Of a stretch of 19,780 nt of DNA, positions 295 to 19,471 are shown piece by piece. Location: the NCBI GenBank assembly GCA_937888775.1, contig CALAQT010000513.1, positions 1 to 19,780 on the forward strand, written 5' to 3'. The translations under genes were made by a program, and so were the position numbers. The notes beneath the pieces were generated by a model. That model was not told the origin of the DNA, did no database searches, and saw only the letters and a list, made by a program, of their open reading frames with translations. Source of the DNA: an uncultured Actinomycetes bacterium. Its GTDB lineage: Bacteria; Actinomycetota; Thermoleophilia; Solirubrobacterales; Solirubrobacteraceae. Position 1 is the first letter of the stretch; each line of letters starts with the position of its first letter.

Positions 295-1386
295 CTAGGT
301 GCCTCCTAGGAGGCCCTTCAGCTCCTCGATCGCGTCCGGTACGTCGTCAACGCGCCGCGTCGTGTGATAGCGAAGCCATTCGCGCTCCAGCGTAGTACGG
401 CCAGCGATCACAACGGTCGGGATGCGCCAAAGGAACGCATAGACAATCTCGCACACGCACCCGATGTACGTCCAATCCTGAAGAGACATGTCCACGACCA
501 TGGCGTCACACCGACGGAGCCACTCAAGATTGCTGTCAACGCGGCCTCCCCCGGAACCGTACCAGGTCGTCCCTCGCCTACCCCAATGTTGTGGAAGCAG
601 GTCGACCACGGGATCTACCGGAACATAACCCGCAGCCCGCACGCTCTCGGCGAGCGACGCTCCCTCCGCAGCGACGTCGGTCCCACGGTAATCGATGGCA
701 CGGGCGATGAATATCCGTGGTCGTGTGTCGCCGGCCGTAGCCGCTTCGGGTCCTTCGATCGTCACGCTTGCGAAGAGCGGGGCCAGTGTCCGAATGGTGG
801 CCCTGATTCTGGCTTTCTGTGGGTAGGCCCGGTAATCCCACTCGCCAGGAGATCCGATCGCCTCGGCGACAATGCGTCTGAGTTGCTGTGAACGCACCCC
901 CTCGCCCGAGGCGACGAAGAGGCGATCGTTCTGATCGTGCATCGCGAGATACGGGCGTCCGCGCCAGGCCGTCAAGCCATCGAGGCCGGTGACGCCGATA
1001 AAGCGGTGTGCCCGACGAGCAAAGTCTAGGACTGGCGCCCTCGTCGGGAGTGAATGAACGTGAAGATGCGAGATCGCCGCGCCCGCTCGCGCTCCGTTCA
1101 TCGTACTTCCATGCTCGAAGAATATGCACGGGCCGTAGACCTGGTTAAGGACATGTCTGACTTGGCGGCGCAACCCGTCTAGAAGTTGAAGCTTTGCGCG
1201 GCCGAGTTCGGCGCAAGAGACAACGTGATCATCGGCAACGATGAGCACGTAACCCTCAGCCTGCGGGCCAATACCCGGCAGGACAGAGAAGCCATCCCGC
1301 TGGAGCAAGACTTCGTCATGCCAGCGGCGACCCGATGGAAGCCCGAAAATACGGCAGAAGACGCAGTCAGCCTCCCCGTTAGTCAT
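295..1386 (-). CDS. HIT-domain / nucleoside 2-deoxyribosyltransferase-like fusion protein
   Basis: Predicted cytosolic two-domain protein of 363 residues. The N-terminal part (about 1-130) is a HIT (histidine triad) domain: a CVFC pair at residues 8-11 that could bind zinc, and the triad H-L-H-V-H at about 107-111, whose middle histidine is the expected nucleophile for hydrolysis or transfer of a nucleotide alpha-phosphate. The C-terminal part (about 225-363) looks like the nucleoside 2-deoxyribosyltransferase fold: RIFIARAIDYRG at the start of the first strand, then CDAMVVDMS, then a CEIVYAF segment whose Glu matches the family's catalytic Glu. A TTG start six codons upstream is possible, but ATG at 1386 places the CVFC motif at the usual distance from the N-terminus. 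It is the last gene of a minus-strand group, 86 nt after the membrane-protein gene. The substrate is unknown. I see no fusion partner that fixes it; nucleotide salvage or nucleotide-signal turnover are inferences. Confidence 0.8.
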   Translation of the reverse strand: MTNGEADCVFCRIFGLPSGRRWHDEVLLQRDGFSVLPGIGPQAEGYVLIVADDHVVSCAELGRAKLQLLDGLRRQVRHVLNQVYGPCIFFEHGSTMNGARAGAAISHLHVHSLPTRAPVLDFARRAHRFIGVTGLDGLTAWRGRPYLAMHDQNDRLFVASGEGVRSQQLRRIVAEAIGSPGEWDYRAYPQKARIRATIRTLAPLFASVTIEGPEAATAGDTRPRIFIARAIDYRGTDVAAEGASLAESVRAAGYVPVDPVVDLLPQHWGRRGTTWYGSGGGRVDSNLEWLRRCDAMVVDMSLQDWTYIGCVCEIVYAFLWRIPTVVIAGRTTLEREWLRYHTTRRVDDVPDAIEELKGLLGGT

Positions 1387-1472
1387 AACCGCCAGCCAAG
1401 ACAAACCGAGGCTGGGATAGCGGTGCTCGGAGGCGCCGTGGAATGTAGGCGCCGTCGACCGTCTGCACGACC

Positions 1473-2573
1473 CTAAGCCTCTCGGGATCGGTCGTCGGCA
1501 AACCGAATGTAGACATCAGCATTGTCGATCCACGAAGGCCCATCGTCGTCGTCGTCCCAATCGACAACTCCCTTCTCTCGGAGAGCCATCAGGGTGCTTT
1601 GTACGAAAGCCGGTTCGTCATAATCGCGAAACAACGGTTCGAGGAGATCGCCGGCACGAACGCCGCGTCGCTTGCCCGTGCGCAGGCGTTGTATCTCATC
1701 GAGGATGCGCTGCTCAATCGCGGCTTGAAGCCGAGACTGACGCTCGTATCTGGCGTCAGGCGGCACAACATGCGACGAGCGGTCCCAAAGATGTTGGAAC
1801 GATAGTTCGAGCATTTGGTACGCGTGGGAGCCGTGGCGGAACAGAATCATCGGGAGGCGAACCGGTGCGATCGGCGCCAAAATATTGGGTGCAAAATATG
1901 CGACGTGGGGAAAGAGAATCGCCGTGCAGTATGGCGCCTGCTTGAATTGCCGTAGCTCGACGCGCGGCCCGTGCTCGGCGACCAGTCTTTGGACGGAAGC
2001 GACCGTCGACTCGATGTCCCGCACAATCTGTGCAGTGACGTCCTTGCGTCTGCCGGGCTCTTCGATCGCGGCGCGCTCCAGTGCCTCCGTGCTGATTGGA
2101 TCCGAGGTCAACGCGCAGATGGCCACGTCTCCAACCGTGTTACGCATGAGAGCCTGTAGATCTTCGAAGAACGGCCCGATCGGATTGAAGAAGACCCTTA
2201 GCGAAACGCCCATCATCCGGACGAGGCCACGGTCGTGGTCATGGAAGTCCGCCTTCAGGCGGACCTGCGCGTTGTCAGCGTTCGTACCAGCCTCGCGATC
2301 GCGATAGACCCTCGTGATGCCGGCATCAGCTAACTCACCAAAGATCCGCCAGACGGCATCGCCGAGCCACCGCTCCCGCAAACGATCGTAAACAAGCGAG
2401 ATCGCGACCGGAAACAAGACTGCGGACCCGAGCGCTTGAGACGCTACGCCTGCAACATAGAGAGCGTGCGAATGCGCGAGAACCCCCAGTGCCACACCGA
2501 GGAGAAAGAGGAAAAGGCCAACCGACCCAGCGATATAGAGATAGGTGTTCGGCTTCCAGGCGCGCAATTTCAA
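1473..2573 (-). CDS. two-span membrane protein with large cytosolic domain
   Basis: 366 residues. Residues about 11-34 and 37-60 are two adjacent hydrophobic helices joined by a short His-containing turn. The rest is soluble and probably cytosolic. Residues about 115-270 contain MMGVSLRVFFNPIGPFFEDL followed by a segment predicting strands and helices (VAICALTSDPIS, RLVAEHGPRVELRQF). This recalls phospholipase-D-like or DUF5919-like sensor/effector modules, but I see no HKD motif, so catalysis is unsupported. The last 70 residues (LFRDYDEPAFVQSTLMALREK) look like a winged helix. The start is TTG with no strong ribosome-binding site. It lies between the NadM-like gene (137-nt gap) and the HIT fusion gene on the same strand. 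The family is not recognised with certainty. A membrane-anchored sensor acting with the neighbouring nucleotide enzymes is a guess. Confidence 0.65.
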   Translation of the reverse strand: MKLRAWKPNTYLYIAGSVGLFLFLLGVALGVLAHSHALYVAGVASQALGSAVLFPVAISLVYDRLRERWLGDAVWRIFGELADAGITRVYRDREAGTNADNAQVRLKADFHDHDRGLVRMMGVSLRVFFNPIGPFFEDLQALMRNTVGDVAICALTSDPISTEALERAAIEEPGRRKDVTAQIVRDIESTVASVQRLVAEHGPRVELRQFKQAPYCTAILFPHVAYFAPNILAPIAPVRLPMILFRHGSHAYQMLELSFQHLWDRSSHVVPPDARYERQSRLQAAIEQRILDEIQRLRTGKRRGVRAGDLLEPLFRDYDEPAFVQSTLMALREKGVVDWDDDDDGPSWIDNADVYIRFADDRSREA

Positions 2574-2710
2574 GACCCCGCAGCCCGCGATGAGACGTCG
2601 CCGGCGATCCTAGTGGCCGCGCAGCAGTCTACTTGGAGCGGGGATTCGACGAGGAAGCGACGATTAGCGTTCATGCAGTCGTGGCTTGAGATGCGGGAAT
2701 ATCCTGGTTG

Positions 2711-3271
2711 TCACGGTGCGCCCCGAAGACGCTCCTCGATGCCTACGCTGCGCAGAAAATCGGCCACGCCGTCGGGAACGAGCTCTGGCCAGTCTGGAGA
2801 ACCTGCGGCGACCAGACGACGCAAGTCGGTTCCGGACAGCGCCTTGTCGTACTCGGTCAGAAGAATGTCAACCTCGTAGCCCTGGCGGCGAAGCACCTGC
2901 GCCTTGTCGAGGTTCCATGGCTCGCGCACGGTTGTGGCACACACGCACGAAAGGGGGACAAAGTCGCAGAGGGCCTCCGGCTGCTCAATCGGAAAAGGCC
3001 CGATAGTGTGCGCCCTATTGTCGCCGGACGCGGCCAGCGCCACACGCCACATTTCGACACGCTCCCAGTACGCGAGCGGGTTCTCGGCTGGCTCGCTTCG
3101 CTTCGCCGGACCCTCAAGATGTGCATGCTGGCCGGTCAAGCCGATGTACAACCGACCGTATTTTGCGGCAGCGCACTGGTAATAGCGAAAGTGGTCGTTG
3201 TGCAAGATCTGAAACCGGCCGTGTATACACGCGCTCGGGAAGACGGTGTGCCGCCTGTCCGACGACCGCAC
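2711..3271 (-). CDS. NadM-like nucleotidyltransferase (cytidylyltransferase superfamily)
   Basis: 186 residues resembling archaeal-type nicotinamide-mononucleotide adenylyltransferase, which joins NMN and ATP to give NAD. GRFQ at 18-21 followed by HNDH at 24-27 matches the GRFQ...HxGH nucleotide-binding signature, with Asp in place of the usual Gly. SGTDLR at 146-151 matches the C-terminal SGTxIR motif that contacts ATP phosphates. WPELVPDGV near 161-169 fits the family's C-terminal helix region. The GTG start at 3271 shares one base with the TAG stop of the upstream HAD gene (TAGTG), so translation is probably coupled. The length is close to the NadM family's usual size. The altered HxGH motif and the gene neighbourhood leave room for another phosphorylated substrate, so NMN specificity should not be assumed. 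Confidence 0.8.
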   Translation of the reverse strand: MRSSDRRHTVFPSACIHGRFQILHNDHFRYYQCAAAKYGRLYIGLTGQHAHLEGPAKRSEPAENPLAYWERVEMWRVALAASGDNRAHTIGPFPIEQPEALCDFVPLSCVCATTVREPWNLDKAQVLRRQGYEVDILLTEYDKALSGTDLRRLVAAGSPDWPELVPDGVADFLRSVGIEERLRGAP

Positions 3272-3948
3272 TACAGACCGAGCAGCGCATCGATTCCCAA
3301 CACGGACGCCAAACGGTGATCTGCGTCGGCCGGATCACCATCCGGCTTACCGCCCTCGACAAGGACGGTCGTCATGCCAAGCCGCTTCGCCGGTGCGAGA
3401 TCCTTCGACAGACTGTCTCCGACGAATAGAGCTTCCGTGGCGGGCACGCCCAGGCGCGCGCAAAGGGCTTGGAAAGGAATCGGACTCGGCTTGATCGGCA
3501 AACCGTCATCAACGCATATGCTGGCGTCGATCTGGCGCCACTCCACGGACAGGGCATCGAAGATCCTGTCCACAAGTGCCTTCTTGAAGTTGGACAAAAT
3601 GCCGACCCGGAGGCCCGCCGATCGGAGCTTCGCGAAGAGGGGGCCGATCGGAGGCGCTCCCGCGAGCAACGCCGACGGGTCGATCTCTGCTGCGGCATCC
3701 TGAAAGGTCGCTCCAGGCACCCCCAGGGCCTCAAGCGCGCCAACCTTACTGTTGTCCCCGCGATCAACTCGATTCTTGGCTCGCTGCTCTTGCAACGCCG
3801 TCCGCGCTTCGTCCAACGTCCAATCGCGGGCCCGCGCGAGAGCGACAAATGCTTGGTCGTCGACGAGGCGATCTAGCTCTGGGCAAACATAGAGCGTGCC
3901 AGCGACGTCGAAAGCCACGGCGGCGACTTGAGGCCTTCTGGAGGGCAA
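3271..3948 (-). CDS. HAD-family hydrolase lacking the second motif-I aspartate
   Basis: 225-residue haloacid-dehalogenase superfamily protein, probably a cytosolic phosphatase. Motif I is FDVAGTLY with the nucleophile D14, but position 16, normally the general acid/base Asp, is Ala. Motif II is ILSN with S119. Motif III is K153 in a KPSP segment. Motif IV is VGDSLSKD with D178 and D183. A helical cap lies between motifs I and II (about 25-95), placing it in the HAD-IA group. DxAGT-type motifs occur in phosphonoacetaldehyde hydrolase and in REG-2-like HADs, so the replacement does not prove loss of activity. The start is TTG at 3948. It is the first gene of the minus-strand group, overlaps the NadM-like gene by one base, and diverges from the ApgM-like gene. 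The substrate is unknown. Confidence 0.82.
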   Translation of the reverse strand: MPSRRPQVAAVAFDVAGTLYVCPELDRLVDDQAFVALARARDWTLDEARTALQEQRAKNRVDRGDNSKVGALEALGVPGATFQDAAAEIDPSALLAGAPPIGPLFAKLRSAGLRVGILSNFKKALVDRIFDALSVEWRQIDASICVDDGLPIKPSPIPFQALCARLGVPATEALFVGDSLSKDLAPAKRLGMTTVLVEGGKPDGDPADADHRLASVLGIDALLGL

Positions 3949-4162
3949 AGCGCTCTGACATTACCACGCGGGTCGTGTCAGGCGACTTCGGGCTGCCTCG
4001 TGCCGGAGGGCTTGAGCTGAGGCGAAACTACGTGCGCTGCAAACCATGCGGTGACCGGGGAATAGGGACCAACTCTCCCTGGAAAAGGTATCGTCAAGCC
4101 ATGAGGATCCTGGGCGATAGCTTGGATCGGGGAGCACACTGCACTCGGGCCTGATTTCTCGC
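3949..4162. promoter_or_regulatory. divergent intergenic region between HAD and ApgM-like genes
   Basis: This 214-nt stretch separates two divergent starts (TTG at 3948 leftward, TTG at 4163 rightward), so it should hold promoters for both transcription units. I see no convincing -35/-10 pair and no strong Shine-Dalgarno site before 4163. A short AGGGA/TCCCT inverted repeat near 4065-4080 is the only small structure noted. The assignment rests on gene layout only. Confidence 0.4.
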
Positions 4163-5422
4163 TTGGTTCCGACGGTCATGGTGGTCATGGACGGCGCCGC
4201 CGACCGACCCGAGGAGGAGTTGCATGGCGCCACCCCCTTGGAACTCGCCCGCACGCCTCATCTCGACGCTATTGCCGAACGGGCGAGAGGAGGCATGCTC
4301 AGGATACTTCCTAGCGGTGGCGCCCCCCAGACCCACTCCGGGATGCTGAGCCTGCTGGGATATCCTGACGTCGCGGTGACGGCGAAGCGTGGGGCGCTGG
4401 AGGGGTCCGTGATTTTCGGAGGCATGCGCCCCGGCTGCGTCTACGCCCGAGGCAATCTCTCAGCGATGGTCGACGGCCGCGTGATTTCAAGGCGGGTGAA
4501 CCGCGACATCACGCAAGCTGAAGCCGACGCGATCTGTATCCTGCTTAACCGCGCGGTTCCGGGACTGTCGGCTACTCCTTGCCATTTCAAAAGCTACTCC
4601 ACTTATCGTCTCGCCGTGGAGATCACCGTTGGCGATGCTCCGACAGACGCAGTGACCGGGACGGATCCCGGCTATTCCGAGGATGAGTTTGCGGTTCCCA
4701 AGCCGCAAGATGGGTTCGCGCCGGCAATGTCGCGGGCGCTTGAGAGGACGGCTGCGGCCAATCGAGTTGCTAACGCCGTGAATGCCATCACGCGCGCATG
4801 TCACACGGTGCTTGAGCGGGCGGACCTAAATGCGAAACGCAGGGCAGCAGGCCGACTTCCAGTTAATCATGTCCTTCTCCGAGATTTTGGCGTGTCTTTG
4901 CCGTCAGCGGAACCTTTCTCGGACCGGTGGGGGCTGACAGCAAAGTACTATCACGACCTACCGGTCGAACTAGGCGTGGCACGCTATTTGCACATGGACG
5001 AAGAGAAGGCGAACTGTGGCGCGGTCAACAGACGGGTATTTGAGGACGCCGCTAGCCGACTCGTGGGCGACTTGGCCAAATATGACTTTATCTGTTTCCA
5101 CGTGAAGGGTCCCGATGAGCCGGGCCATGACGGCAATTGGAAAGCCAAGGTTCGCGCTATCGAGATTGTCGACGAAGGCCTGTTTGCACGACTGGCGCTC
5201 GAACTCGACCGACGACCCGTAACCCTAGCCATCACGTCTGACCATGCAACGTGTTGGGCGGTCAGGACGCACACTGGCGATCCGGTGCCAATCATCGTGA
5301 CGGGGACGGGCACGCCAGACGGGAGATTACGTTTGAGTGAGGCCGCGTGCGCTCAGGGAACTTTTCCGATCACCGAAGCTTGGAAGGTGATGACAGGCCT
5401 CACCAACTTGGGGAGGACTTAG
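4163..5422 (+). CDS. ApgM-type (archaeal-type) cofactor-independent phosphoglycerate mutase homologue
   Basis: 419 residues, full length for the ApgM family, which interconverts 3- and 2-phosphoglycerate within the alkaline phosphatase superfamily. Family marks seen: metal-ligand D10 in VVMDGAADRP, TPLELARTPHLD at 24-35, HVKGPDEPGHDGN at 313-325, ITSDHAT at 357-363 and HTGDPVP at 370-376. The nucleophile region is unusual: APQTHSGMLSLLGY at 54-67, where typical ApgM proteins have a GSD-type motif before the LLGY segment. By my alignment the nucleophilic Ser falls on T57 and the following Asp on H58. The start is TTG at 4163; no better upstream start was seen. The gene stands alone on the plus strand, divergent from HAD/NadM and convergent with the PGK paralogue. 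The stop TAG lies inside the 4-bp target duplication of an IS1380 insertion, so the product is unaffected. Glycolytic mutase activity is uncertain. Confidence 0.85.
   Translation: MVPTVMVVMDGAADRPEEELHGATPLELARTPHLDAIAERARGGMLRILPSGGAPQTHSGMLSLLGYPDVAVTAKRGALEGSVIFGGMRPGCVYARGNLSAMVDGRVISRRVNRDITQAEADAICILLNRAVPGLSATPCHFKSYSTYRLAVEITVGDAPTDAVTGTDPGYSEDEFAVPKPQDGFAPAMSRALERTAAANRVANAVNAITRACHTVLERADLNAKRRAAGRLPVNHVLLRDFGVSLPSAEPFSDRWGLTAKYYHDLPVELGVARYLHMDEEKANCGAVNRRVFEDAASRLVGDLAKYDFICFHVKGPDEPGHDGNWKAKVRAIEIVDEGLFARLALELDRRPVTLAITSDHATCWAVRTHTGDPVPIIVTGTGTPDGRLRLSEAACAQGTFPITEAWKVMTGLTNLGRT
5419..5422. repeat. left target-site duplication of IS1380 (TTAG)
   Basis: TTAG immediately before the left inverted repeat, repeated at 7073-7076. 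Its last three bases are the TAG stop codon of the ApgM-like gene. Confidence 0.85.
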
Positions 5423-5441
5423 CCTCGAAGCGCCAATAGCG
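5423..5441 (+). repeat. IS1380 left terminal inverted repeat
   Basis: Starts CCTCGAAGCGCCAATAG and pairs with the right end at 7054-7072, with mismatches at positions 14 and 18. Confidence 0.88.
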
Positions 5442-5529
5442 GGCTGACGTCGGATCCTGGGAACGTCCTCCCGGGCCGTGAGAATCGGGATTGCTCAAGA
5501 TCTCGATCCCGACCCAGGAGGACACCCAG

Positions 5530-6864
5530 TTGGTGAAGCCAGAGGCTCGTCTCGAAACGATAGAAGTGACGGCGGACGGTGCGGGGCTGGTGTCGCACGC
5601 GGGCGTCGCGTTGCTGGTCGAGTTAACCGACCGGGTCGGGTTGACGGCGGCGTTGTCTGAGGCGTTGGCCGTGACGCGGGAGCGGCGCTCGGCGCACGAT
5701 CCGGGCCGGGTGCTGCGCGACGTGGCGGTGATGCTCGCGGACGGCGGCGACTGCGTGACCGACATCGACGCGTATCGCGGTCAGCAGCGGCTATTCGGCG
5801 CGAGGGCGTCGGAGACAACGACTCACCGGGTTCTCAAGGCGATCGACGAGCGGCTGCTGGGCCGGGTGCGCTGTGCGCGAGCACAGGCGCGGGCTCGGGT
5901 GTGGGACGCCGGCGCTCGCCCGGACACGATCACGTTGAACATCGACGCGACCTTGTTGACCGCGCATTCGGAGAAGGAGTCGGCGGCCGGCAATTACAAG
6001 CACGGGTACGGGTTTCATCCGCTCGGGTGTTGGCTGGACGAGACCGGCGAGGCGCTCGCCGCGATCCTCAGACCGGGGAACGCCGGGTCAAACACGGCGG
6101 AGGATCACTTCCAGGTGCTGGGGCTCGCGCTCGCGCAGTTGCCCGCCGAGGACCTGGACCGGGAGATCCTCGTCCGCACTGATATCGGCGGTCAGACGCA
6201 CGCGTTCACCGCCGATTGTCGCGATGCTGGGATCCGCTTCTCGGTCGGCTATGAGCTGACCGAGACGGTCCGCGCCGCGATCCTCAAGGTCCCGGAGGCG
6301 GCGTGGATACAGGCGATCAACGCAGGTGGGGAGAACCGGGATGGCGCGTGGGTGACGGAGCTGACCGACAGGATCGATCTGTCCGCTTGGCCCGAGGGGT
6401 CCCGGTTGATCTGTCGCAGCGAGCGTCCGCACCCCGGCGCGCAGTTCACGATCTTCGACGAGCACGGCTACCGGTACACGTGCTTTCTCACCGACCAAGA
6501 AGGCAACGACATCGCCGCCCTGGAGCTGCGTCACCGCGGCCGCGCGCGGGTTGAGGACAGCATCCGCGCCGGCCGGGACACCGGCATGCGCAACCTCTCG
6601 CACCACAGCTTCGAGCACAACCAGACCTGGCTTGAGACCTCGCTGATCGCGCAAGACCTGCTCTGCTGGACCAGGGTGATCTGCCTGACCGGCGAGCTCG
6701 CCACCGCCGAACCCAAACGACTCCGTCACCGAGTTCTGCACGTCGCCGGCAAGGTCGTGCGTCACGGGCGACGCACCCACCTCAAACTCGATCGCGATTG
6801 GCCCTGGTCCGACGCGCTCGTCGCAGCGTTCGCAAGGCTCCGCGAGATCCCGGCGCTCTGCTGA
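5530..6864 (+). CDS. IS1380-family DDE transposase
   Basis: About 444 residues from the start chosen. The frame stays open up to a TTG at 5491, but AGGAGG at 5516-5521 lies 8 nt before TTG 5530 and 11 nt before GTG 5533, so one of these is the likely start. IS1380 hallmarks are present: LNIDATLLTAHSEKE (first catalytic Asp), LRPGNAGSNTAEDH, ILVRTDIGGQTHAF (second Asp) and a C-terminal HSFEHNQTWLETSLIAQDLL region containing the likely Glu. It acts on the terminal repeats of its own element. No lesion is seen. It is diverged at protein level from the second IS1380 transposase in this window, so the two copies are separate arrivals. Confidence 0.93.
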   Translation: MVKPEARLETIEVTADGAGLVSHAGVALLVELTDRVGLTAALSEALAVTRERRSAHDPGRVLRDVAVMLADGGDCVTDIDAYRGQQRLFGARASETTTHRVLKAIDERLLGRVRCARAQARARVWDAGARPDTITLNIDATLLTAHSEKESAAGNYKHGYGFHPLGCWLDETGEALAAILRPGNAGSNTAEDHFQVLGLALAQLPAEDLDREILVRTDIGGQTHAFTADCRDAGIRFSVGYELTETVRAAILKVPEAAWIQAINAGGENRDGAWVTELTDRIDLSAWPEGSRLICRSERPHPGAQFTIFDEHGYRYTCFLTDQEGNDIAALELRHRGRARVEDSIRAGRDTGMRNLSHHSFEHNQTWLETSLIAQDLLCWTRVICLTGELATAEPKRLRHRVLHVAGKVVRHGRRTHLKLDRDWPWSDALVAAFARLREIPALC

Positions 6865-7053
6865 GCACCGACCGCTCCCGCTGCCAGGACCTCGCGACCG
6901 ACTCGCAGTACCGACGAAGTCCGCCTGCCCGGAAACGACCACCATGGGCGCGAACGCGCTTGCGCTCAACGACCAGACAGCCATCTCTCGCGCCAACAAC
7001 CCCCTCACCCGGCCAACTACAGCCGAGCGACACAAGCCGAGTCACCACGACGA

Positions 7054-7072
7054 CCCTAATGGCGCTTCGAGG
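7054..7072 (-). repeat. IS1380 right terminal inverted repeat
   Basis: Ends ...CTAATGGCGCTTCGAGG; its reverse complement matches the left end at 5423-5441. It is followed directly by the second TTAG copy. Confidence 0.88.
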
Positions 7073-7076
7073 TTAG
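7073..7076. repeat. right target-site duplication of IS1380 (TTAG)
   Basis: TTAG immediately after the right inverted repeat, equal to 5419-5422. Ancestral sequence downstream of the ApgM-like gene resumes from here. Confidence 0.85.
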
Positions 7077-7499
7077 CGGCGTCTCGGCGCCCAGTCCCGG
7101 GCGAGAGTTCCGGGTTGCCCGTTCTTGGAGCGCCGGGCGTCCCCGCGGTCGCCCTGCGAGGACCAGGGCCGGGAGATGTAGGAGGTCTGGGTTACCTGCC
7201 GTGGCAGGCCCTGCGTTCGGGACCGCGTTGTGGGGTCGAGAGACTCTGGATGGCACCGCGTGTCAAGCCGGCGGAACGCGAATCACGCCGGCAGAACGAC
7301 CGGCTGAAATGGGGTACGACGACTTAGGCTTCGGAGAAGGCCGCGAGCGGGCGATGGCCTCCGCCGAACCTGCCACATGCTGGCAGCGCCGACGGCGGGA
7401 TGAGTGGCCATGGTTTCATGCCACATAATCGTCCGCCGGCAGACGATAGCGCACCCGGCATGACTGCCGGCGCGCAGGCGAGATATGAGGTGACTACGT
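7077..7499. other. intergenic region between ApgM-like and PGK-like genes, no gene seen
   Basis: About 420 nt between two convergent genes once the IS1380 is removed. Short frames exist on both strands, but none has a recognisable motif or ribosome-binding site. Codon composition looks like GC-rich background. Termination signals for both convergent units are expected here; I could not assign a clear stem-loop. Confidence 0.5.
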
Positions 7500-8723
7500 T
7501 TAGCTATTGAGCGCCGCGACCGCTGGCAGTTCGGCGCCCATCAGCCAGGAGAGCATGGCGCCACCACCCGTACAGATGTGAATGGCTCCGTTATCCTGGC
7601 CTTCGAGTACAGCGACCACCGCGGCGACAGTGTCCCCGCCGCCAATGACACCGTGCTTGCCACTCGCGCGCAATGCCTTGGCAATCCCGATAGTGCCAGC
7701 GCGGTAATCGGGATGCTCGAAGTATCCTGCGGGTCCGTTCCACACAACCAAGCGGGCGGAATCGATTGCACGCTCGAGACCCGCGAGCGTAGCCGGCCCG
7801 ATGTCAAGCGCGCGTCCTCTCTCAGGCACGGGCTCCTGCGGAAACTGCACCAACGACCTGTAGTCGTCGACCTTTACGACTGAGTCAGCCGGAAGGAGGA
7901 TTGGCTTCCCAGCGAGTCGGGCTTCCTCAAGTACGGCGCGACAAGCGTCGACGTCCTCGTTCAAGGAGGCACCGGGAGCGTCGATCCCTCTTGTATCTGC
8001 CGTTAGCGTGGCACCGACGGCAATGCCGTCGGCGAGGAGGAAGAAGTACGCGAGCTTTCCCACCACGGCCACTTGGTCCATGCGTGCTAGGAGGCTGCGG
8101 ACGACGTGGATCTTGCCGTCCTTACCCGACACCTTCGCGCCGCCAATTATCCCGAGGGTCGGGCGGTATTCGGGTCTGTTGATCAACTCGAGCTCGTGTA
8201 GCTCCCGTTCGAGAAGGAGACCGGCGCACCGCTCAGGAGCAGCCAGCGCCGCCGCGACCATCGACGCGTGGGGGCGGTGGCAGTTGCCGAAAGCGTCGTT
8301 GACATAGACATCGACACCACGGACTAGGGCGGCGCCGAACGAAGGATCGTTTGCGTTCTCCTCAGCGTAGTACCGCACGTTCTCGAGGAGGAGCGTTTGC
8401 CCCGGGCCCAGTGCGGCAACGGCATCGTCGCGAGCGGAGCCGACGCAGTCGTCGGTGAAAAGCACAGGTGCGCCCAGCACGCTCTCGAGCGGTTGAACAA
8501 GCTGACGGAGGGACTTCTCGGGGTCGCGCTTACCCCAAGGTCGGCCCATGTGAGAGCAGATGACGACTCGGGCGCCCTCAGTTCTCAGCCTCTGGATCGT
8601 CGGCTCTGATGCGCGAATCCGCGTATAGTCGGGAGTTCCCGTTTCCGGATCGATTGCGACGTTCAGTTCGCACCGGAGAAAGACGGTCTTGCCGGCGAGA
8701 CCGACGTCGTTGAGAGTCTTCAA
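7500..8723 (-). CDS. divergent phosphoglycerate kinase paralogue
   Basis: 407 residues, about the normal PGK length. PGK transfers phosphate between 1,3-bisphosphoglycerate and ADP. Seen: an N-terminal LRCELN at 16-21 in place of the usual RxDFN (Asp to Glu), SHMGRP at 57-62, LLENVRYY at 112-119, VNDAFGNCHRPHAS at 141-154, GGAKVSGK at 194-201 (KVSDK in most PGKs, so Asp to Gly), LDIGPAT at 306-312, WNGPAGYFE at 328-336 and GGGDTVAAV at 361-369. VGKLAYFF replaces the common GGGMAYTF. Both lobes and the ATP-binding loop are kept, so it is probably a functional kinase. The several substitutions at normally invariant substrate-side positions suggest a paralogue with shifted substrate or regulation. 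The TTG start lies 8 nt after the stop of the small upstream gene, in one operon with selD. Confidence 0.88.
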   Translation of the reverse strand: MKTLNDVGLAGKTVFLRCELNVAIDPETGTPDYTRIRASEPTIQRLRTEGARVVICSHMGRPWGKRDPEKSLRQLVQPLESVLGAPVLFTDDCVGSARDDAVAALGPGQTLLLENVRYYAEENANDPSFGAALVRGVDVYVNDAFGNCHRPHASMVAAALAAPERCAGLLLERELHELELINRPEYRPTLGIIGGAKVSGKDGKIHVVRSLLARMDQVAVVGKLAYFFLLADGIAVGATLTADTRGIDAPGASLNEDVDACRAVLEEARLAGKPILLPADSVVKVDDYRSLVQFPQEPVPERGRALDIGPATLAGLERAIDSARLVVWNGPAGYFEHPDYRAGTIGIAKALRASGKHGVIGGGDTVAAVVAVLEGQDNGAIHICTGGGAMLSWLMGAELPAVAALNS

Positions 8724-8731
8724 CGCTGAAC

Positions 8732-8947
8732 CTAACCGGCTACTTCGAAGCCCTCGGGCTCTAGGTCAACGCGGGACGTCAAAACGACATCGGGATCGGC
8801 ACGGCGCAACTGGGCCTCGATGGCCGCCTTGTGCGCCACTAGTTCGTCGCGCGTGAATCCGGTCTCCTTTTCGAGGTCGGCAAATGTAATCCAGTTGCGC
8901 TCGGAGAGGATGGCCACCACCTTGTTCAATGCGTCATTCGTAGACAC
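8732..8947 (-). CDS. small winged-helix-like protein between selD and pgk-like gene
   Basis: 71 residues from a GTG at 8947, preceded by TTCAGGAG with AGGAG 8 nt from the start. The sequence NKVVAILSERNWITFADLEK followed by ETGFTRDELVAHKAAIEAQL reads like a small helix-turn-helix or winged-helix domain (about residues 5-48), with an acidic tail VDLEPEGFEVAG. The frame is open further up to an ATG at 9118 that overlaps the selD stop as ATGA. That longer 128-residue form is possible, but its extra N-terminus has no recognisable domain. The gene ends 8 nt before the PGK paralogue. Family unknown; it might regulate the operon or be an accessory subunit. Confidence 0.6.
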   Translation of the reverse strand: MSTNDALNKVVAILSERNWITFADLEKETGFTRDELVAHKAAIEAQLRRADPDVVLTSRVDLEPEGFEVAG

Positions 8948-9114
8948 GAGGAAGGCTCCTGAAATCTGTACGATGAAAGGCTGGGACCTGCGGTATTCTA
9001 CCGGGCCTGAGACGAGAAGGATCCGCAGGTTAGTTTGGAGGCCCTTCGGCTCGTTCGGGCAGGACGGGACGGCGCGGTCAAGGTGGCCTGGGCCGTTGGG
9101 CGTCCGGCGCAAGA

Positions 9115-10155
9115 TCATTCAATGATGGTCAGACCGGCTCCTAATCCGACAGTGCCGACCTGTGTGGCACGAAGGCCAGACTCCGCAAGTTCCTGCACTA
9201 GCGCCTCCGCGTTTGATGGCGGAAGTGAGATGAGAAGACCGCCGGCCGTCTGTGGGTCAAGCGCGACCACCAAGAGCGCGGAGTCGAGATGGCTTGCGCC
9301 AGCGAGAGCCTCTGGGACGAGTCCGCGGTTCCTGCTGTCGCCCGACGTTACGACACCCGCGGCGGCAAGACGTTGCGCTCCGGGCACGAGAGGCATGGTC
9401 GACAGGGCAATCGTCAGCCGTACGTTGCTGCTCGATGCGACCTCATGGGCGTGGCCGAGGAGGCCGAAGCCGGTAACGTCAGTGACGGCATTTGGGGCGT
9501 GAGCCCGGAGGATTTCAACCGTGCTGCTGTTTGGCATGAGCAGCCAGCGGATCGTCGCGTCGAGTTCGCCCTCGCGTAGGACGCCTTTGCGTTGTCCTGT
9601 GATTATCAGTCCAGTGCCCAGAGGCTTCGTAAGAACTAGAACGTCACCGACCTGAGCTCCAGATTTGAGCCATATGCGGTGCGGGTCCACGAAGCCAGCA
9701 ACCGCGAGCCCAAACTTTGGTTCGGCATCGCGGATGGTGTGACCGCCTGCGAGTATCACACCGACCTCCGAACATTGGCTGGCGGCTCCTGCGACAACGT
9801 CGGCCAGGATCTCTGGGGGAAGCTCTTCGGGAAAAGCGGCTACCGAAAGCGCTAGCGCGGGTCGGCCTCCCATCGCGTACACGTCGTTGAGCGCATTGTT
9901 TGCGGCTATGCGGCCGAAAGTCTTCGGATCGTCCACGACGGGCGGGAAGAAGTCGACTGTGAAGACGAGCGCCTGTGATTCGCTGATCCTGAGGACGGCT
10001 GCATCGTCGGCTGGGTCGAGCCCGACGAGCAGATTTGGGTCGCTCGCAGACGGAATGCGCTCTAGAAGACTTCTGAGAAGAACGCCGTCGTACTTTGCGG
10101 CGCAGCCTCCAGACGAACAGAGCGCTGTCAGGGTTTGCGTTCGCAGATCGCTCAT
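9115..10155 (-). CDS. selD: selenide, water dikinase (selenophosphate synthetase)
   Basis: 346 residues, full length. SelD makes selenophosphate from selenide and ATP, the selenium donor for selenocysteine, selenouridine and other selenium products. The active-site loop is SSGGCAAK with C18 and K21, matching the catalytic Cys and Lys, so this is the Cys form and not the Sec form. Further marks are DPADDAAVL at 47-55, VDFFPPVVDDP at about 67-77, ANNALNDVYAMGGRPALALS at 84-103, AGGHTI, VTDVTGFGLLGH and DPQTAGGLL, in the normal order of the PurM/AIRS-like fold. The ATG start at 10155 follows a divergent intergenic region. Downstream on the same strand are the small winged-helix-like gene and the PGK paralogue, probably co-transcribed. 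No SelA, SelB, SelU, tRNA-Sec, SenA or SenB is visible in the window, so the user of the selenophosphate is not known. Confidence 0.93.
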   Translation of the reverse strand: MSDLRTQTLTALCSSGGCAAKYDGVLLRSLLERIPSASDPNLLVGLDPADDAAVLRISESQALVFTVDFFPPVVDDPKTFGRIAANNALNDVYAMGGRPALALSVAAFPEELPPEILADVVAGAASQCSEVGVILAGGHTIRDAEPKFGLAVAGFVDPHRIWLKSGAQVGDVLVLTKPLGTGLIITGQRKGVLREGELDATIRWLLMPNSSTVEILRAHAPNAVTDVTGFGLLGHAHEVASSSNVRLTIALSTMPLVPGAQRLAAAGVVTSGDSRNRGLVPEALAGASHLDSALLVVALDPQTAGGLLISLPPSNAEALVQELAESGLRATQVGTVGLGAGLTIIE

Positions 10156-10397
10156 GACGCTTGCGCGGGCCCGACGCTAAGCGCTATTCCCGGTCGACGG
10201 CCAAAAATACTTGTGGGCATTTGCGGTCATGAATGTTCGAACGTTGCAAGCCGAGAGGTGCGTTGGAGCGTACCCCGACGGCACAGCTCGCTCGGATGGC
10301 CCGATCGGGGGAAATCTAGCATCAGTTAGTCGCTAATCCGTTGTCATGGTGCATCATCCTGAAGACGCTGCACGTCAAGCGTGTATTGTGCCCGACA
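10156..10397. promoter_or_regulatory. divergent intergenic region between selD and the Nudix-like gene
   Basis: About 240 nt between the selD start (leftward) and the Nudix-like start (rightward). It should hold both promoters. A near-palindrome AATGTTCGAACGTT sits near 10228-10241. No clear -35/-10 pair is seen. The role is inferred from layout. Confidence 0.4.
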
Positions 10398-10883
10398 ATG
10401 GCCGGAAACGAGATTGACGTCTATTTCGTAGCTGTGAAGGCTCTGATACGCGATCGGAGCAAGCTGCTGATAACGCACGACATCTTTGGCGATTGGGACA
10501 TCCCGGGTGGCCGTCTCCGGAAAGAGGACTTCGACGCTCCGTTGGAAGCGATTCTCGAGCGGAAGTTGGGTGAGGAACTAGGTGACGCGTTCGTGGTGAG
10601 AATCGGTGGGCCTTGCGTTTTCTTCCGTCATCAGCGCGTGGAGCACGGACGAGATGGGCAAGTCGCACGCATTTTCGCCGTCGGGTTTCACGTAGACTAC
10701 GCGGCGGGGGTAGTGAAGCTGGGTGGTCACCATGACAACCATCTCTGGGTAGACATGCCAAGCTTCCGACCTGCGGATTACTTCACGGGCGGCTGGCTTC
10801 GAGGGTTGAACGAGTACTTGGCGAGGTGCAGCGATCGACAGGAGGTCGCGGACTCCTCAAGTTTGAGAATTGACGAGCACTAG
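10398..10883 (+). CDS. Nudix-like hydrolase with imperfect Nudix box
   Basis: 161 residues from ATG 10398, read as MAGNEIDVYFVAV; a TTG 57 nt upstream gives a longer, less convincing start. The family cleaves nucleoside diphosphates linked to another group. IPGGRLRKEDFDAPLEAILE followed by RKLGEELGD aligns with the Nudix box Gx5Ex7REUxEExGU, but the canonical Arg-Glu is Arg-Lys, and the loop after GGR appears to carry a 3-residue insertion; the EELG half is kept. The flanking beta-strand pattern (VKALIRDRSKLLITHD before the box, VARIFAVGFHVDY after it) fits the fold. It diverges from selD and may belong to the same metabolic set by position. Activity is uncertain because one of the metal-box residues differs. 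Confidence 0.72.
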   Translation: MAGNEIDVYFVAVKALIRDRSKLLITHDIFGDWDIPGGRLRKEDFDAPLEAILERKLGEELGDAFVVRIGGPCVFFRHQRVEHGRDGQVARIFAVGFHVDYAAGVVKLGGHHDNHLWVDMPSFRPADYFTGGWLRGLNEYLARCSDRQEVADSSSLRIDEH

Positions 10884-13152: not shown

Positions 13153-15349
13153 TCAGGGTTGTGCAAACAGTCCAGCTTCGTGGCTGGGAAACCTCGATCC
13201 GCAGGCCTTTCCGGCGTCCTTGCGTGACTTCGATCGCTCGCCGCTCGCCGCGTTGGACCTGATGCAACACGGTCTGGCGAGCGACGCCGAGCCGTTTCGC
13301 GGCCTCATCGAGCCGAACGAACCCGTCGGGAACGTCGGGGACGAACCGGCGTCGGGCGTCTTCGGAGAGTCGGATCCGCCAGGGCGCCTGCGGGGTTACT
13401 TGCTCACCGGCGAGCAGCCCGTCCTTCAGCCAGCGGCGGACGGTCGCGCCGGACCCGCCGAGCTCGCTGGCTGCTTGCTGGATCGTGACCAGCTGGCTGT
13501 CGGGATCGGCCGGTGGCGCGCGGCGGGGATCCCGGCGCGCTGGCGCAGATCCCGCACACGCGCCTGGGTGAACGGCAGTCCCTTGCCGGTGAGGCGGCCT
13601 TGCTTATTCAGCGTGCCGGCGATCTCGCGGTCGTGATGGTGCCGGGCGAGCCGCCGCACGAGCGCGACGGTCTCCTCGCTGGTGCGCATCCGGGGCGCGC
13701 CGCGGCCGACCGCCAGCCGCAGCTGAGTGCGGGCGCCGCCCTCCCACATGATCTCCACGTCCGCGTGCTTGTCGGGGCGCTTGACGGTCACCACGACATC
13801 GCTCACGACCGTGCGCAGTAGCTCCTTGCGGTCGCGACCGCTCGTCGTTGGAGCGTCCCATAGCCGCGGGAGATCACGCGCAAGCCTGGCCAGCACGAGT
13901 CGTTCCTGGGCAGTGAGCGGCTCGGGACGGGCGTGCTCGAGCAGCGCAAGCTTGCGCTGCTCGCGCTCGACCGCGATCAGCGCCTGCTCGTAGGCGTGCT
14001 CCACGGTCCGGGCGACAAGCCGGTTCTCCGGCTCGCACTCGTTGTATTGGCGCTTCGCGCGGCCCGCTTCATACTCGGCTCGCTCGACCGCGAGGCGCTG
14101 CCGAGCGAGCCGCTGCTCGTGCTGGTCCTCGAGCTCGGCGATCGCGCCCACGCCTGCGCTCACGCCCGCCGGGCTGACCGCCTCCAGGAACGCTGCTGCG
14201 ACAGCATGGTCAAGACGCCGGCCGCCGAGTGCCTGGCAGGCGGTCGCGGCGCCGTGGTGGTCACGGGCGCGCACGCACCAGTAGCGCGGCGAGCGGCCGT
14301 CCTTGCCCGAGTAGGTCACCTGCATCCGCCGACCGCAGCGCCCGCAGCGCACCAGGCCCTGCAGCAGCCCGGCGCCCTCGCGTGCGGCGCCGCCGCCCTC
14401 CCCGCGTGGCCTCATGTTCGCGTGCAGCCGCAAGCGCGTGGCGAGGTACTCGTCCCAGCTGACATAGCCGGAATGATGATTGGGCAGGCAGACGGCCCAC
14501 TCCTCCAGCGGCAACACGAGCCGACGGACCCGCACCCGTCCATCCGGGTCGAGATGCTTCTCCTCGCGCGTCCGACCGAACGTGAACGTCCCCGCGTAGG
14601 TGGGATTGGTCAGGAAGTCGTGCACCATCGGGTAGCTGGGTCGCACCCAGCGAACGCGGCGCTGCCCGACGCTGCGGCGCGGCAGCGTGCTCCCCTCCGC
14701 GCACAGCTCGGCGAGCACCTACCGCGCGGAGCCCAGCCGCCGCCACAACACGAAGACATGCTCGATCGCGGAGCGCACCTGCTCATCAGAGCAGAGCACG
14801 ATCCGGTCCTCGTCGTCGCGGGCAAACCCGACCGGCAAGTGCAACCGCAGCTCCCCGCGAGCCGCCTTGTTGCGCAGCCCGCCATCCAAGCGAGCTCGGA
14901 TCAGATGCAGCTCGGCCTCTGACATCGTGCCCTTCAAGCCGAGCAGCAGCCGATCGTTGAACTGCCCCGGCGCGTAGATGCCGTCCTGGTCGGCGACCAG
15001 CGTGCCCGTCAGCGCGCACAGCTCAAGCAGCTGATGCCAGTCCGCCGAGGATCGCGCCAACCGCGACGTCTCCAACGCCAAAACCAGCCCGACATGTCCC
15101 AGGCCAACCTCCGCGACCAACTCCTGAAACCCCACCCGCCCATCAGTCGAAGCGCCCGACCTGCCGGTGTCCTCGTCGACGACCGAGATCCCAGCAAGCG
15201 GCCATCCGAGAGCGACCGCGCGTTCACGCAACGCGTACTGGCGCGGCCGATTCCACGTTGCCCGCGACCTGCAACGCGGTCGACTGCCGCACGTACACGA
15301 CCGCGCGACGCCGTCGATGCGAGTAAGTGATCTTCCGCTCGTCGCTCAC
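13153..15349 (-). pseudogene. large serine recombinase, broken by frameshifts and an amber codon
   Basis: The reconstructed product would be about 730 residues. It starts GTG 15349 (VSDERKITYSHRRR), with the catalytic serine in AVVYVRQSTALQV. Lesion 1: a frameshift near 15255, after AGNVES, with the body resuming as LRERAVALGWPLAGISVVDE. Lesion 2: in-frame TAG at 14719-14721, where GSARQVL is usual, so Gln to amber. Then come the recombinase domain (NPTYAGTFTFGR), a zinc ribbon (CGRCGRRMQV ... YWCVRARDHHG) and a coiled coil. Lesion 3: a frameshift near 13525. A MerR-like helix-turn-helix tail follows (LVTIQQAASELGGSGATVRR). Lesion 4: an extra T near 13190, after which the normal ending SHEAGLFAQP and TGA at 13153-13155 can be read. 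No single product can be made unless decoding is unusual. Confidence 0.85.
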
Positions 15350-18013: not shown

Positions 18014-19471
18014 TTGCGGGTGAACACGAGTAACGATTTCAGGAGCGTCGGACGGCTCCGGTTCCGGGCGGACGATCCGAGCCTGACGCCGTATGGTGGG
18101 CTGGCGATCGTGGGTGAGCTCGCGCGCCGCACGCGGCTGGTCGAGCTCGTCGACGCGGAGCTCGCGGCCGTGCGTGGTGTGGGTGCGGTCAAGGCCCGCC
18201 GGCGCGGGCTTTCGCCTGGTGCGCTGGTGGTCTCTCTGGGGGAGTGCCAGATCGCTGGGGCGGAGTGCTTTGATGACATCGAGAACGTTCGTGCGGATAC
18301 CGCGGGCGCTGCGCTTCGCGCGGATACCGCGACACCTTCAGCACGACCGCACGCCAACTCGCGATGCGTTACCGGCCTACGCGCGATCGAGGGTGCGGTG
18401 GCGCGGGTGGGTGAGCGTGTTGATCGTCAGCTCGGGCGTGACCCGGGCGATCAGGTGACGTTCGACCTGGACGCCACCGAGACGGAGGTCTACGGGCGCG
18501 GGGCGCGCCGGCGCGGCGCCGCCCGCAGTCACAGCGGCGCGCTGACCTACCAAGCGTATGTCGTGAGCTGGGCCGAGCGCGGCCGCGCGATGACCAGCGA
18601 GCTTATGGGCGGCAGCCGCGCGCGGATCACCGCGCGCGAGTCCGCCAGGATGATCGCCCGCGCCAAGAGCTTGCTGCCCGCCGGGCATCGGCAGCTCACC
18701 GCCCGGTTCGACAGCGGGTTCTACTCGGCCGAGCTGATGATCGCGCTGCGCGACCAGCACACGCGGTTCTCGATGTCCGCGCCGCGGACGAGCAGCATGT
18801 GGAGCGCCTTGGCGTCGATCCCCGAGGAAAACTGGGTTCAAGCGACCGAGATGCGCGGCGCCGAGGTCGCCGAGATCGCGTTCACCCCCCACGGCTGGGA
18901 GCTGGAGGCGCTGCGGCTGATCGTCTGCAGGGTGAGCGTCAGCGCGCAGGAGATTCACCGCGGATCCCCACGCGCCAGGCGGCGCTCCACGATCCCCGCC
19001 GACCAACTTCAGATGGTCCTCGACGGACAGCTCGACTCGACCTACGCCTACAGCTTCAGCGTGACTGACATCCCCACCGAGCAGAAGAACACGATCGAGG
19101 TCGAGTACTTCCACCGCCAACGCGCTCAGATCGAGGAGCGCTTCAAAGACGCGAAACTCGGCCAACCCCTGCGTCACCTCCCGAGCGGCGACATCAACTC
19201 AAACCGCGTCTGGCTCACCGCCAGCCTGATCGCGTTGAACATCACCGCGATCCTCTGCGACCTCTCGCCCGCCGCCGCCGCATCCGGCCAAGCCCCCAAC
19301 GACACACCCTTACGCCGCCACGCGAAGGCGCTATGACGGATCCTGTTCTGCGTCCCCGCCCGGATCGCCCGCACCGCACGGCAGATCACGCTGCGCCTCC
19401 CCGCCGGCTTCCGCTACCTGGACAGCTTCCAGGCGACCTACCAGGCCGTCACCGCGCTCGGCGCCCAATAA
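18014..19471 (+). pseudogene. IS1380-family transposase with scrambled segment and in-frame TGA
   Basis: The frame runs 440 residues from TTG 18014 (AGGAG at 18001-18005, 8 nt before) to TGA 19334-19336. Past the TGA, the same frame continues for 44 residues (RILFCVPARIARTARQ, then ITLRLPAGFRYLDSF) to TAA 19469-19471, a normal-looking family C-terminus, so an Arg CGA probably became TGA. Catalytic regions are recognisable: TFDLDATETEVYG, LTARFDSGFYSAE, and EVEYFHRQRAQIEERFKDAK, which contains the likely Glu. Near 18330-18385 the open frame reads poorly, while the adjacent frame gives the family-like TFSTTARQLAMRYRP, so two compensating indels flank that segment. A 12-bp direct repeat, GCGGATACCGCG, 27 bp apart (18293 and 18320), lies just before it. 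Probably inactive. Confidence 0.85.

Follow-up and report, generated by a model that had tools for sequence, protein, structure and literature searches.

Nucleotide activation of a small phosphorus acid is known from phosphonate biosynthesis, where PhpF is a phosphonoformate cytidylyltransferase (accessible part of PMC6697681) and phosphinothricin biosynthesis proceeds via CMP-phosphonoformate (CMP, cytidine monophosphate; accessible part of PMC12288639). The reaction of PhpG, from a CMP-activated phosphonate to 3-phosphoglycerate, is taken here solely from the NCBIfam name NF038358. On the selenium side, selenoneine synthesis by SenA, SenB and SelD is a SelD-dependent route of selenium into a small molecule, as described in the available portions of PMC10702425 and PMC10891094. 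SelD-like proteins of sulfur-reducing archaea (PMC4210487; NF038049) possess the SelD-like catalytic Cys and Lys, and the available portion of the former source reports SirA-like, Prx-like and sulfur genes as their partners. Here, we compare with these systems a locus of an uncultured Solirubrobacteraceae bacterium, positions 295-10883 of a 19,780-nucleotide stretch of DNA (contig CALAQT010000513.1; the window, meaning the whole stretch analysed), in which the selenophosphate synthetase gene selD stands with genes for a NadM/PhpF-like nucleotidyltransferase (C) and an ApgM/PhpG-like metalloenzyme (E). Orphan SelDs and the thiophosphate idea are discussed in PMC4210487, PMC9312934, PMC5322559 and PMC13188914, the accessible parts of which name neither C nor E, and no description of the trio was found in the open-licence literature searched, as far as its text was available. 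That SelD, C and E form the core of a dedicated selenium pathway, perhaps a sulfur pathway in haloarchaea, is in our judgement plausible, though short of probable.

The core proteins and their described relatives

The window SelD looks normal: the columns of Cys18 and Lys21 are invariant in two alignments, and their counterparts in E. coli SelD are the catalytic Cys17 and Lys20. Protein C resembles NadM (TIGR01527; PDB 1ej2) in its fold and in the GRFQ...H..H motif, but it scores under the curated NadM cut-offs (42.7 bits against 181.2 for TIGR01527, and 46.6 bits against 127 for PRK01153), which rule out its assignment as NadM, and it differs further in standing with SelD and E. No curated model for PhpF came up in the family scans. 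Protein E exhibits an alkaline-phosphatase-type fold and metal-ligand pattern, both shared with ApgM (TIGR00306; PDB 2zkt), the ligands being those of the phosphoglycerate mutases. It is nonetheless neither ApgM nor PhpG by the curated cut-offs, with 264.9 bits against 320 for TIGR00306 and 299.5 bits against 545 for NF038358. Its nucleophile site reads Thr57-His58 versus Ser-Asp in the ApgM structures, and this replacement is found in 17/17 aligned rows of the E clade. Asp10 of E is kept in L001 and is a Cys in L003 and P0069. Alignment A4 omits three rows: L006, P0147, which is shortened, and L004, which had been read in the wrong orientation (16% identity).

A tree of E computed with a quick method groups 18 rows in the E clade (support 100), separate from an 11-row set (support 100) that holds L001-L003, P0069 and P0074, i.e., the PhpG side. 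P0001, P0017, P0020, P0025 and P0120 were left out of this tree, which still includes L009, L014 and L019, wrong open reading frames (ORFs) with very long branches. Apart from the E clade, ApgM-type proteins 31-36% identical to E occur in 36 of the 396 genomes drawn across the phylum (L007, L011 and L023 among the tree rows). The KGPDVPAHD motif is present in all three correctly read rows out of the six such proteins put in the tree, and their function may also be non-glycolytic.

The gene order closest to that of C and E in described biochemistry is that of PhpF/PhpG, where the gene for a NadM-like nucleotidyltransferase immediately precedes one for an ApgM-like protein. In L003 (Amycolatopsis sp. 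MtRt-6) and L001 (a Clostridia metagenome-assembled genome), the gene right after a C homologue encodes a protein that exceeds the PhpG threshold (664.8 and 579.4 bits, respectively); the gene before PhpG in L003 is 36% identical to window C, and window E is 31-33% identical to its counterparts in L001-L003. The surroundings differ, however: L001-L003 possess an enolase-like gene (near PhpG and under the enolase cut-off in L001 and L003), L003 a phosphoenolpyruvate (PEP) mutase-like gene (313.9 bits against a cut-off of 319.55), and no SelD match is found there, while window E departs from PhpG in its score and in its Thr-His site. In L001:9396-13222, the C homologue, PhpG and the enolase-like gene follow each other, no PEP mutase was noticed by eye in 13 kb, and the contig ends shortly after. 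What the two systems may share, by analogy, is a small phosphorus acid that would be nucleotide-activated and then moved by an ApgM-like enzyme.

Linkage of selD, C and E in other lineages

Relatives at about 50-63% identity were recovered by protein searches in which E, C and SelD served as queries; the named E or C relatives among them (P0010 and P0147) are both from Solirubrobacteraceae. Linkage among these metagenomic proteins was judged from contigs equal in length and source, against a null in which lengths were jittered by 20% in 20000 draws. Eleven of the 19 E-clade proteins (P0002-P0020) share contig size and source with a C relative, against a null mean of 0.025 and a maximum of 2. 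For SelD, the best 120 of 7617 matches yield 119 relatives, 118 of them with a size value (P0179 has none), and among the matches listed, seven of the 118 coincide in contig size with a relative from the E or C list (null 0.28, maximum 4). A SelD-C match at 1442 bases was excluded from the seven for differing sources. Five of the six same-source matches left fit both E and C contigs, and one (7463) only a C contig; the five contigs common to the E, C and SelD lists compare with a null mean of 0.04 and a maximum of 2. A quick-method tree of 120 SelD rows places the window SelD and the six linked SelDs within a 13-row set (support 99) versus 107 others; four of the other six rows in this set lie on contigs under 4 kb.

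The trio also recurs far from Solirubrobacteraceae. C homologues are found in 18 plasmid records (seven from Rhodococcus, six from Halobaculum, the rest including Halorussus, Enterococcus and Treponema); in the 16 that were read, their neighbour is SelD or a SelD-related protein in 12 and PPDK-like in four, the other two records being haloarchaeal. Five of the seven Rhodococcus plasmids display the order acyl-CoA dehydrogenase-selD-C-E, with genes overlapping by a few bases; in one of them E is shortened beside an IS3 element, and the E proteins of all five, being 94-100% alike, are counted as one lineage. The other two carry C before a PPDK-like gene. In NZ_CP032676, a sixth Rhodococcus plasmid with a match to E, this match is no more than a fragment that covers 12% of the protein. 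True SelD is encoded on 161 plasmid records (E-value 1e-25), and its position beside C was seen only in the five Rhodococcus plasmids. The R. aetherivorans SelD is a true one, above the curated cut-off.

All six Halobaculum plasmids with a C homologue have the order acyl-CoA dehydrogenase-E-SelD-related-C, in which the SelD-related protein is annotated as "hypothetical". These proteins match NF038049 in 3/3 cases tested (E-values 1e-28 to 1e-36, under the 250-bit cut-off), and those of all six records are homologous to a Halorussus protein (NF038049, 172.9 bits, also below the cut-off) encoded directly before C, in a stretch where no E is annotated. A SelD-related gene thus adjoins C in 7/7 plasmid records that have one. 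These haloarchaeal proteins, which resemble the archaeal SelD-like family, differ from it in scoring under its cut-off and in having C, and in Halobaculum also E, as partners. Their affinity opens the way to a sulfur pathway, in which SelD and its relatives would make thiophosphate that C and E process: NF038049 is the nearest family, and thiophosphate synthesis has been proposed for crenarchaeal SelD-like members (accessible part of PMC4210487), a family that is equated with NF038049 from the names. Against it, the curated model identifies the SelDs of the window and of R. aetherivorans as genuine SelDs, and we regard this explanation as improbable for the trio as a whole. The E proteins of the Rhodococcus and Halobaculum lineages are only 27% identical to window E and have a Ser at the nucleophile position; therefore, the trio is not bound to one type of E.

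Taken with the metagenomic relatives, these plasmids (SelD-related in Halobaculum) establish that SelD, the NadM-like and the ApgM-like proteins are kept together beyond this strain. The sequence-only reading of this DNA had singled out two pairings, apgM-like with nadM-like and pgk-like with selD. The former holds in the 11 contigs above and in the five Rhodococcus and six Halobaculum plasmids. The latter is not borne out: the conserved set is NadM-like, ApgM-like and SelD, and the phosphoglycerate kinase paralogue (PGK) has no relative in the distant loci tested. Recurrence of the trio in unrelated lineages is also hard to reconcile with ordinary glycolytic and NAD-salvage paralogues gathered by chance near insertion elements. 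Three of the genes in the locus do look like those of housekeeping enzymes, and mobile elements abound there, but E and C fall under the ApgM and NadM cut-offs, and we consider this account hardly credible. It is contradicted for the trio; for the PGK, the HAD and HIT proteins and the Nudix-like protein, a chance gathering is possible.

The E clade itself was found in the metagenomic relatives, and genome collections returned more distant proteins. A scan of r220 contigs with A1 for E-clade loci reports three distant loci only (31-33% identical). In the phylum draw, 140/396 genomes contain an E match (E-value 1e-20), the best being 33% identical and those listed at most 37%, with no member of the E clade. 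Genome searches for the clade at an E-value of 1e-66 gave 0/24, 0/399, 0/103, 0/18, 0/15 and 0/146 in overlapping draws.

Two further contexts of C were observed. A C-like gene followed by a PPDK-like "PEP/pyruvate-binding" gene occurs at L035:2436-4818, L036:7995-10505, L037:7986-12349 and L043:5492-7896, and looks like a separate conserved pair; a radical SAM protein accompanies it in R. opacus, and Treponema has one of the viperin family there together with a cysteine desulfurase. The acyl-CoA dehydrogenase-E-SelD-related-C genes of Halobaculum lipolyticum have an annotated PEP/pyruvate-binding protein (L044:1-148) just past them. Among viral contigs, no E relative was found and a C relative occurs on two IMG/VR contigs, apparently copies of one phage-like element (L031:688-2800 and L032:5969-8081), on which a membrane protein and the C-like gene follow, in a row, what may be a Nudix-like protein (judged by eye, as NCBIfam gives no match), with a methylase-like and then a histidine-kinase-like gene (both by eye) coming after them. 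Phage records contain no match to the C of this element. Its membrane protein and its possible Nudix protein were compared with window proteins B and J (see table) and rejected as their counterparts (BLASTP E-values 0.52 and 0.74).

Locus layout, accessory genes and mobile elements

The locus consists of two leftward gene strings and two rightward single genes, with one insertion element cutting through. The first string reads D, C, B, A and the second SelD, H, PGK, while E and J each point away from the first gene of one string. The ORF check and family scans agree with the earlier gene calls: every gene named is open at its position and belongs to the family assigned, save for a supposed HIT/deoxyribosyltransferase fusion (A), whose HIT domain is borne out and whose deoxyribosyltransferase half is not, as whole-protein scans return no family above cut-off there. 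Two operons and two single genes had also been described correctly, with B and H omitted.

Table. Features of the locus (positions in the window).
Feature	Positions	Strand	Evidence and status
A, HIT-domain protein	295..1404	-	PF11969 42 bits, PF01230 28.5 bits; system membership only putative
B, membrane-like N-terminal part (by eye), same string as C	1473..2573	-	no family above cut-off; membership putative
C, NadM/PhpF-like nucleotidyltransferase, core	2711..3271	-	
D, HAD-family protein, DxA not DxD	3271..3948	-	PF00702 64.4 bits; one-base overlap with C start
E, ApgM/PhpG-like metalloenzyme, core	4163..5422	+	
IS1380-type insertion element, outside the system	5423..7072	+	transposase PF13701 254.4 bits; inverted ends
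PGK paralogue, SelD's string, accessory	7500..8723	-	PF00162 353 bits, cut-off 27
H, small protein between SelD and PGK	8732..9118	-	no family above cut-off; membership putative
SelD, selenophosphate synthetase, core	9115..10155	-	TIGR00476 335.6 bits, cut-off 125
J, Nudix-like, divergent from SelD	10341..10883	+	PF00293 20.8 bits, just under Pfam cut-off 21.1; membership putative

Changes at normally fixed residues, which had been remarked from the letters alone, are seen in E as described above and in two accessory proteins. As compared with PDB 7zy7, the PGK carries a Glu in place of the Asp in RxDxNV and is longer by three residues behind KVS, and the HAD protein has Asp-Val-Ala where its best PDB match, 4ygq, has Asp-Ile-Asp. 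We infer the membership of D in the system from its overlap with the C start alone. The true start of H, judging from its sequence, is likely the GTG at 8947, giving 71 residues. Searches (tblastn) with the window PGK, HAD protein, HIT protein, B and J return no match in L033 (Rhodococcus), L034, L039 and L040 (Halobaculum), L051 and L052, so that the PGK was rejected as a core member; neither is a PGK annotated in the remaining seven Rhodococcus and Halobaculum stretches read. In plasmids, the best 12 of 71 records matching the window PGK are 36-41% identical.

The IS1380-type element begins directly after the E stop codon; its inverted ends, at 5423 and about 7072, match at 13/14 bases and its transposase lies at 5491-6864. 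Before this insertion, E and PGK thus lay closer together. Rightward of the locus are transposases of the ISL3 and IS1380 types as well as a serine recombinase (13426-15231), the latter consisting of two open frames split by one in-frame stop and resembling a broken mobile gene. The second IS1380-type transposase (18014-19336) is distinct from the copy at 5491-6864, with 78 bits for PF13701 versus 254. No tRNA genes were found.

These transposases and the recombinase, together with the C homologue in the phage-like contig, the viperin gene near the Treponema C homologue and a weak match of the HIT protein to ThsC (PADLOC, E-value 0.0033), could point to a nucleotide-signalling or defence island whose HIT, Nudix-like, NadM-like and HAD proteins would act on a signal nucleotide. 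Yet, apart from that HIT-ThsC match, none of the PADLOC models matches the nine proteins at an E-value of 0.01, and SelD and E have the look of metabolic enzymes and are found again as an operon in several lineages, which makes such an island very unlikely.

A putative selenium pathway

Gene linkage, family assignments and conserved catalytic columns are direct observations; we infer every substrate and product in the following scheme by analogy. SelD would make selenophosphate, to which C would attach a nucleoside monophosphate (CMP or adenosine monophosphate), yielding a nucleoside diphosphate whose beta phosphorus bears the selenium. E would then take the selenophosphoryl group onto Thr57 and pass it to a small phosphoglycerate-like acceptor, perhaps 3-phosphoglycerate, and the PGK paralogue and the HAD protein may subsequently act on the product in this host. 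SelD and the PPDK/PEP-synthase-type enzymes both use ATP as dikinases. The usual partners of C (SelD, SelD-related and PPDK-like proteins) phosphorylate small substrates with ATP, which suggests a capping of the compounds so phosphorylated as the role of C. A product derived from phosphoglycerate would agree with the presence of a PGK paralogue next to selD. The sequence-only reading had already envisaged the activation of a phosphoglycerate-like or selenium-containing metabolite with a nucleotide; recurrence of the trio and the PhpF/PhpG logic lend support to this idea, except for the part assigned to PGK.

Alternatively, C and E may make a nucleotide-activated glycerate or other acid, selenophosphate serving merely as a later selenium donor, as with SenB in selenoneine synthesis. 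The known roles of SelD are indeed those of a selenium donor, the PGK and the ApgM-like enzyme hint at phosphoglycerate as carbon skeleton, and the acyl-CoA dehydrogenase neighbours imply a carbon substrate. However, no SenB-like or SelU-like selenium-transfer enzyme appears among the 17 window ORFs (Pfam scan) or is annotated in those trio loci that were read, nor was a counterpart of the selenium glycosyltransferase used in selenoneine synthesis (PMC10702425 and PMC10891094, in part) seen among the window ORFs scanned. On balance, this alternative seems unlikely, although it deserves to be kept in view.

Several observations weigh against a dedicated selenium pathway with SelD, C and E at its core. 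E fails the PhpG cut-off and groups apart from PhpG in the tree. Metagenomic linkage is read from equal contig size and source, not from contig names; six of the 11 E-C contigs have no SelD among the best 120 of 7617 SelD matches, two members of the 13-row SelD set come from contigs, 24909 and 10273 bases long, with no E or C contig to match, and the window SelD has a long branch outside the 8-row subset containing the six linked SelDs. Some C homologues have neither SelD nor E with them, namely those on two Rhodococcus plasmids, in Enterococcus and Treponema, and in the phage-like contig. Lastly, among 298 genomes of the Amycolatopsis order (G002), two have a close Rhodococcus-type E, and in both, acyl-CoA dehydrogenase, C and E are adjacent with no selD match in 19.5 kb. 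Both carry SelA above cut-off; selD adjoins selA in one, and no selD is found in the 15 kb around selA in the second. Selenophosphate may be supplied in trans in these genomes, a reading based on the two of them, or the operon may need no selenium.

The established selenium-use traits all enter through SelD. Genomes that encode it but show no known selenium trait were still described as unexplained in 2015 and 2022 (PMC5322559 and PMC9312934, in the portions available). It is possible, if doubtful, that the trio represents a further trait, in which nucleotide-capped selenophosphate delivers a seleno-phosphoryl group onto a phosphoglycerate-like acceptor, giving a Se-P-C metabolite on the way toward C-Se bonds; haloarchaea would have the sulfur version of it. 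If true, it would stand beside selenoproteins, selenouridine, the selenium cofactor and selenoneine/ovoselenol, and selenophosphate or thiophosphate would join the phosphonates as compounds activated by a nucleotide. The compact operon of SelD, nucleotidyltransferase and transferase-like genes in cultured Rhodococcus makes the orphan-SelD question directly testable.

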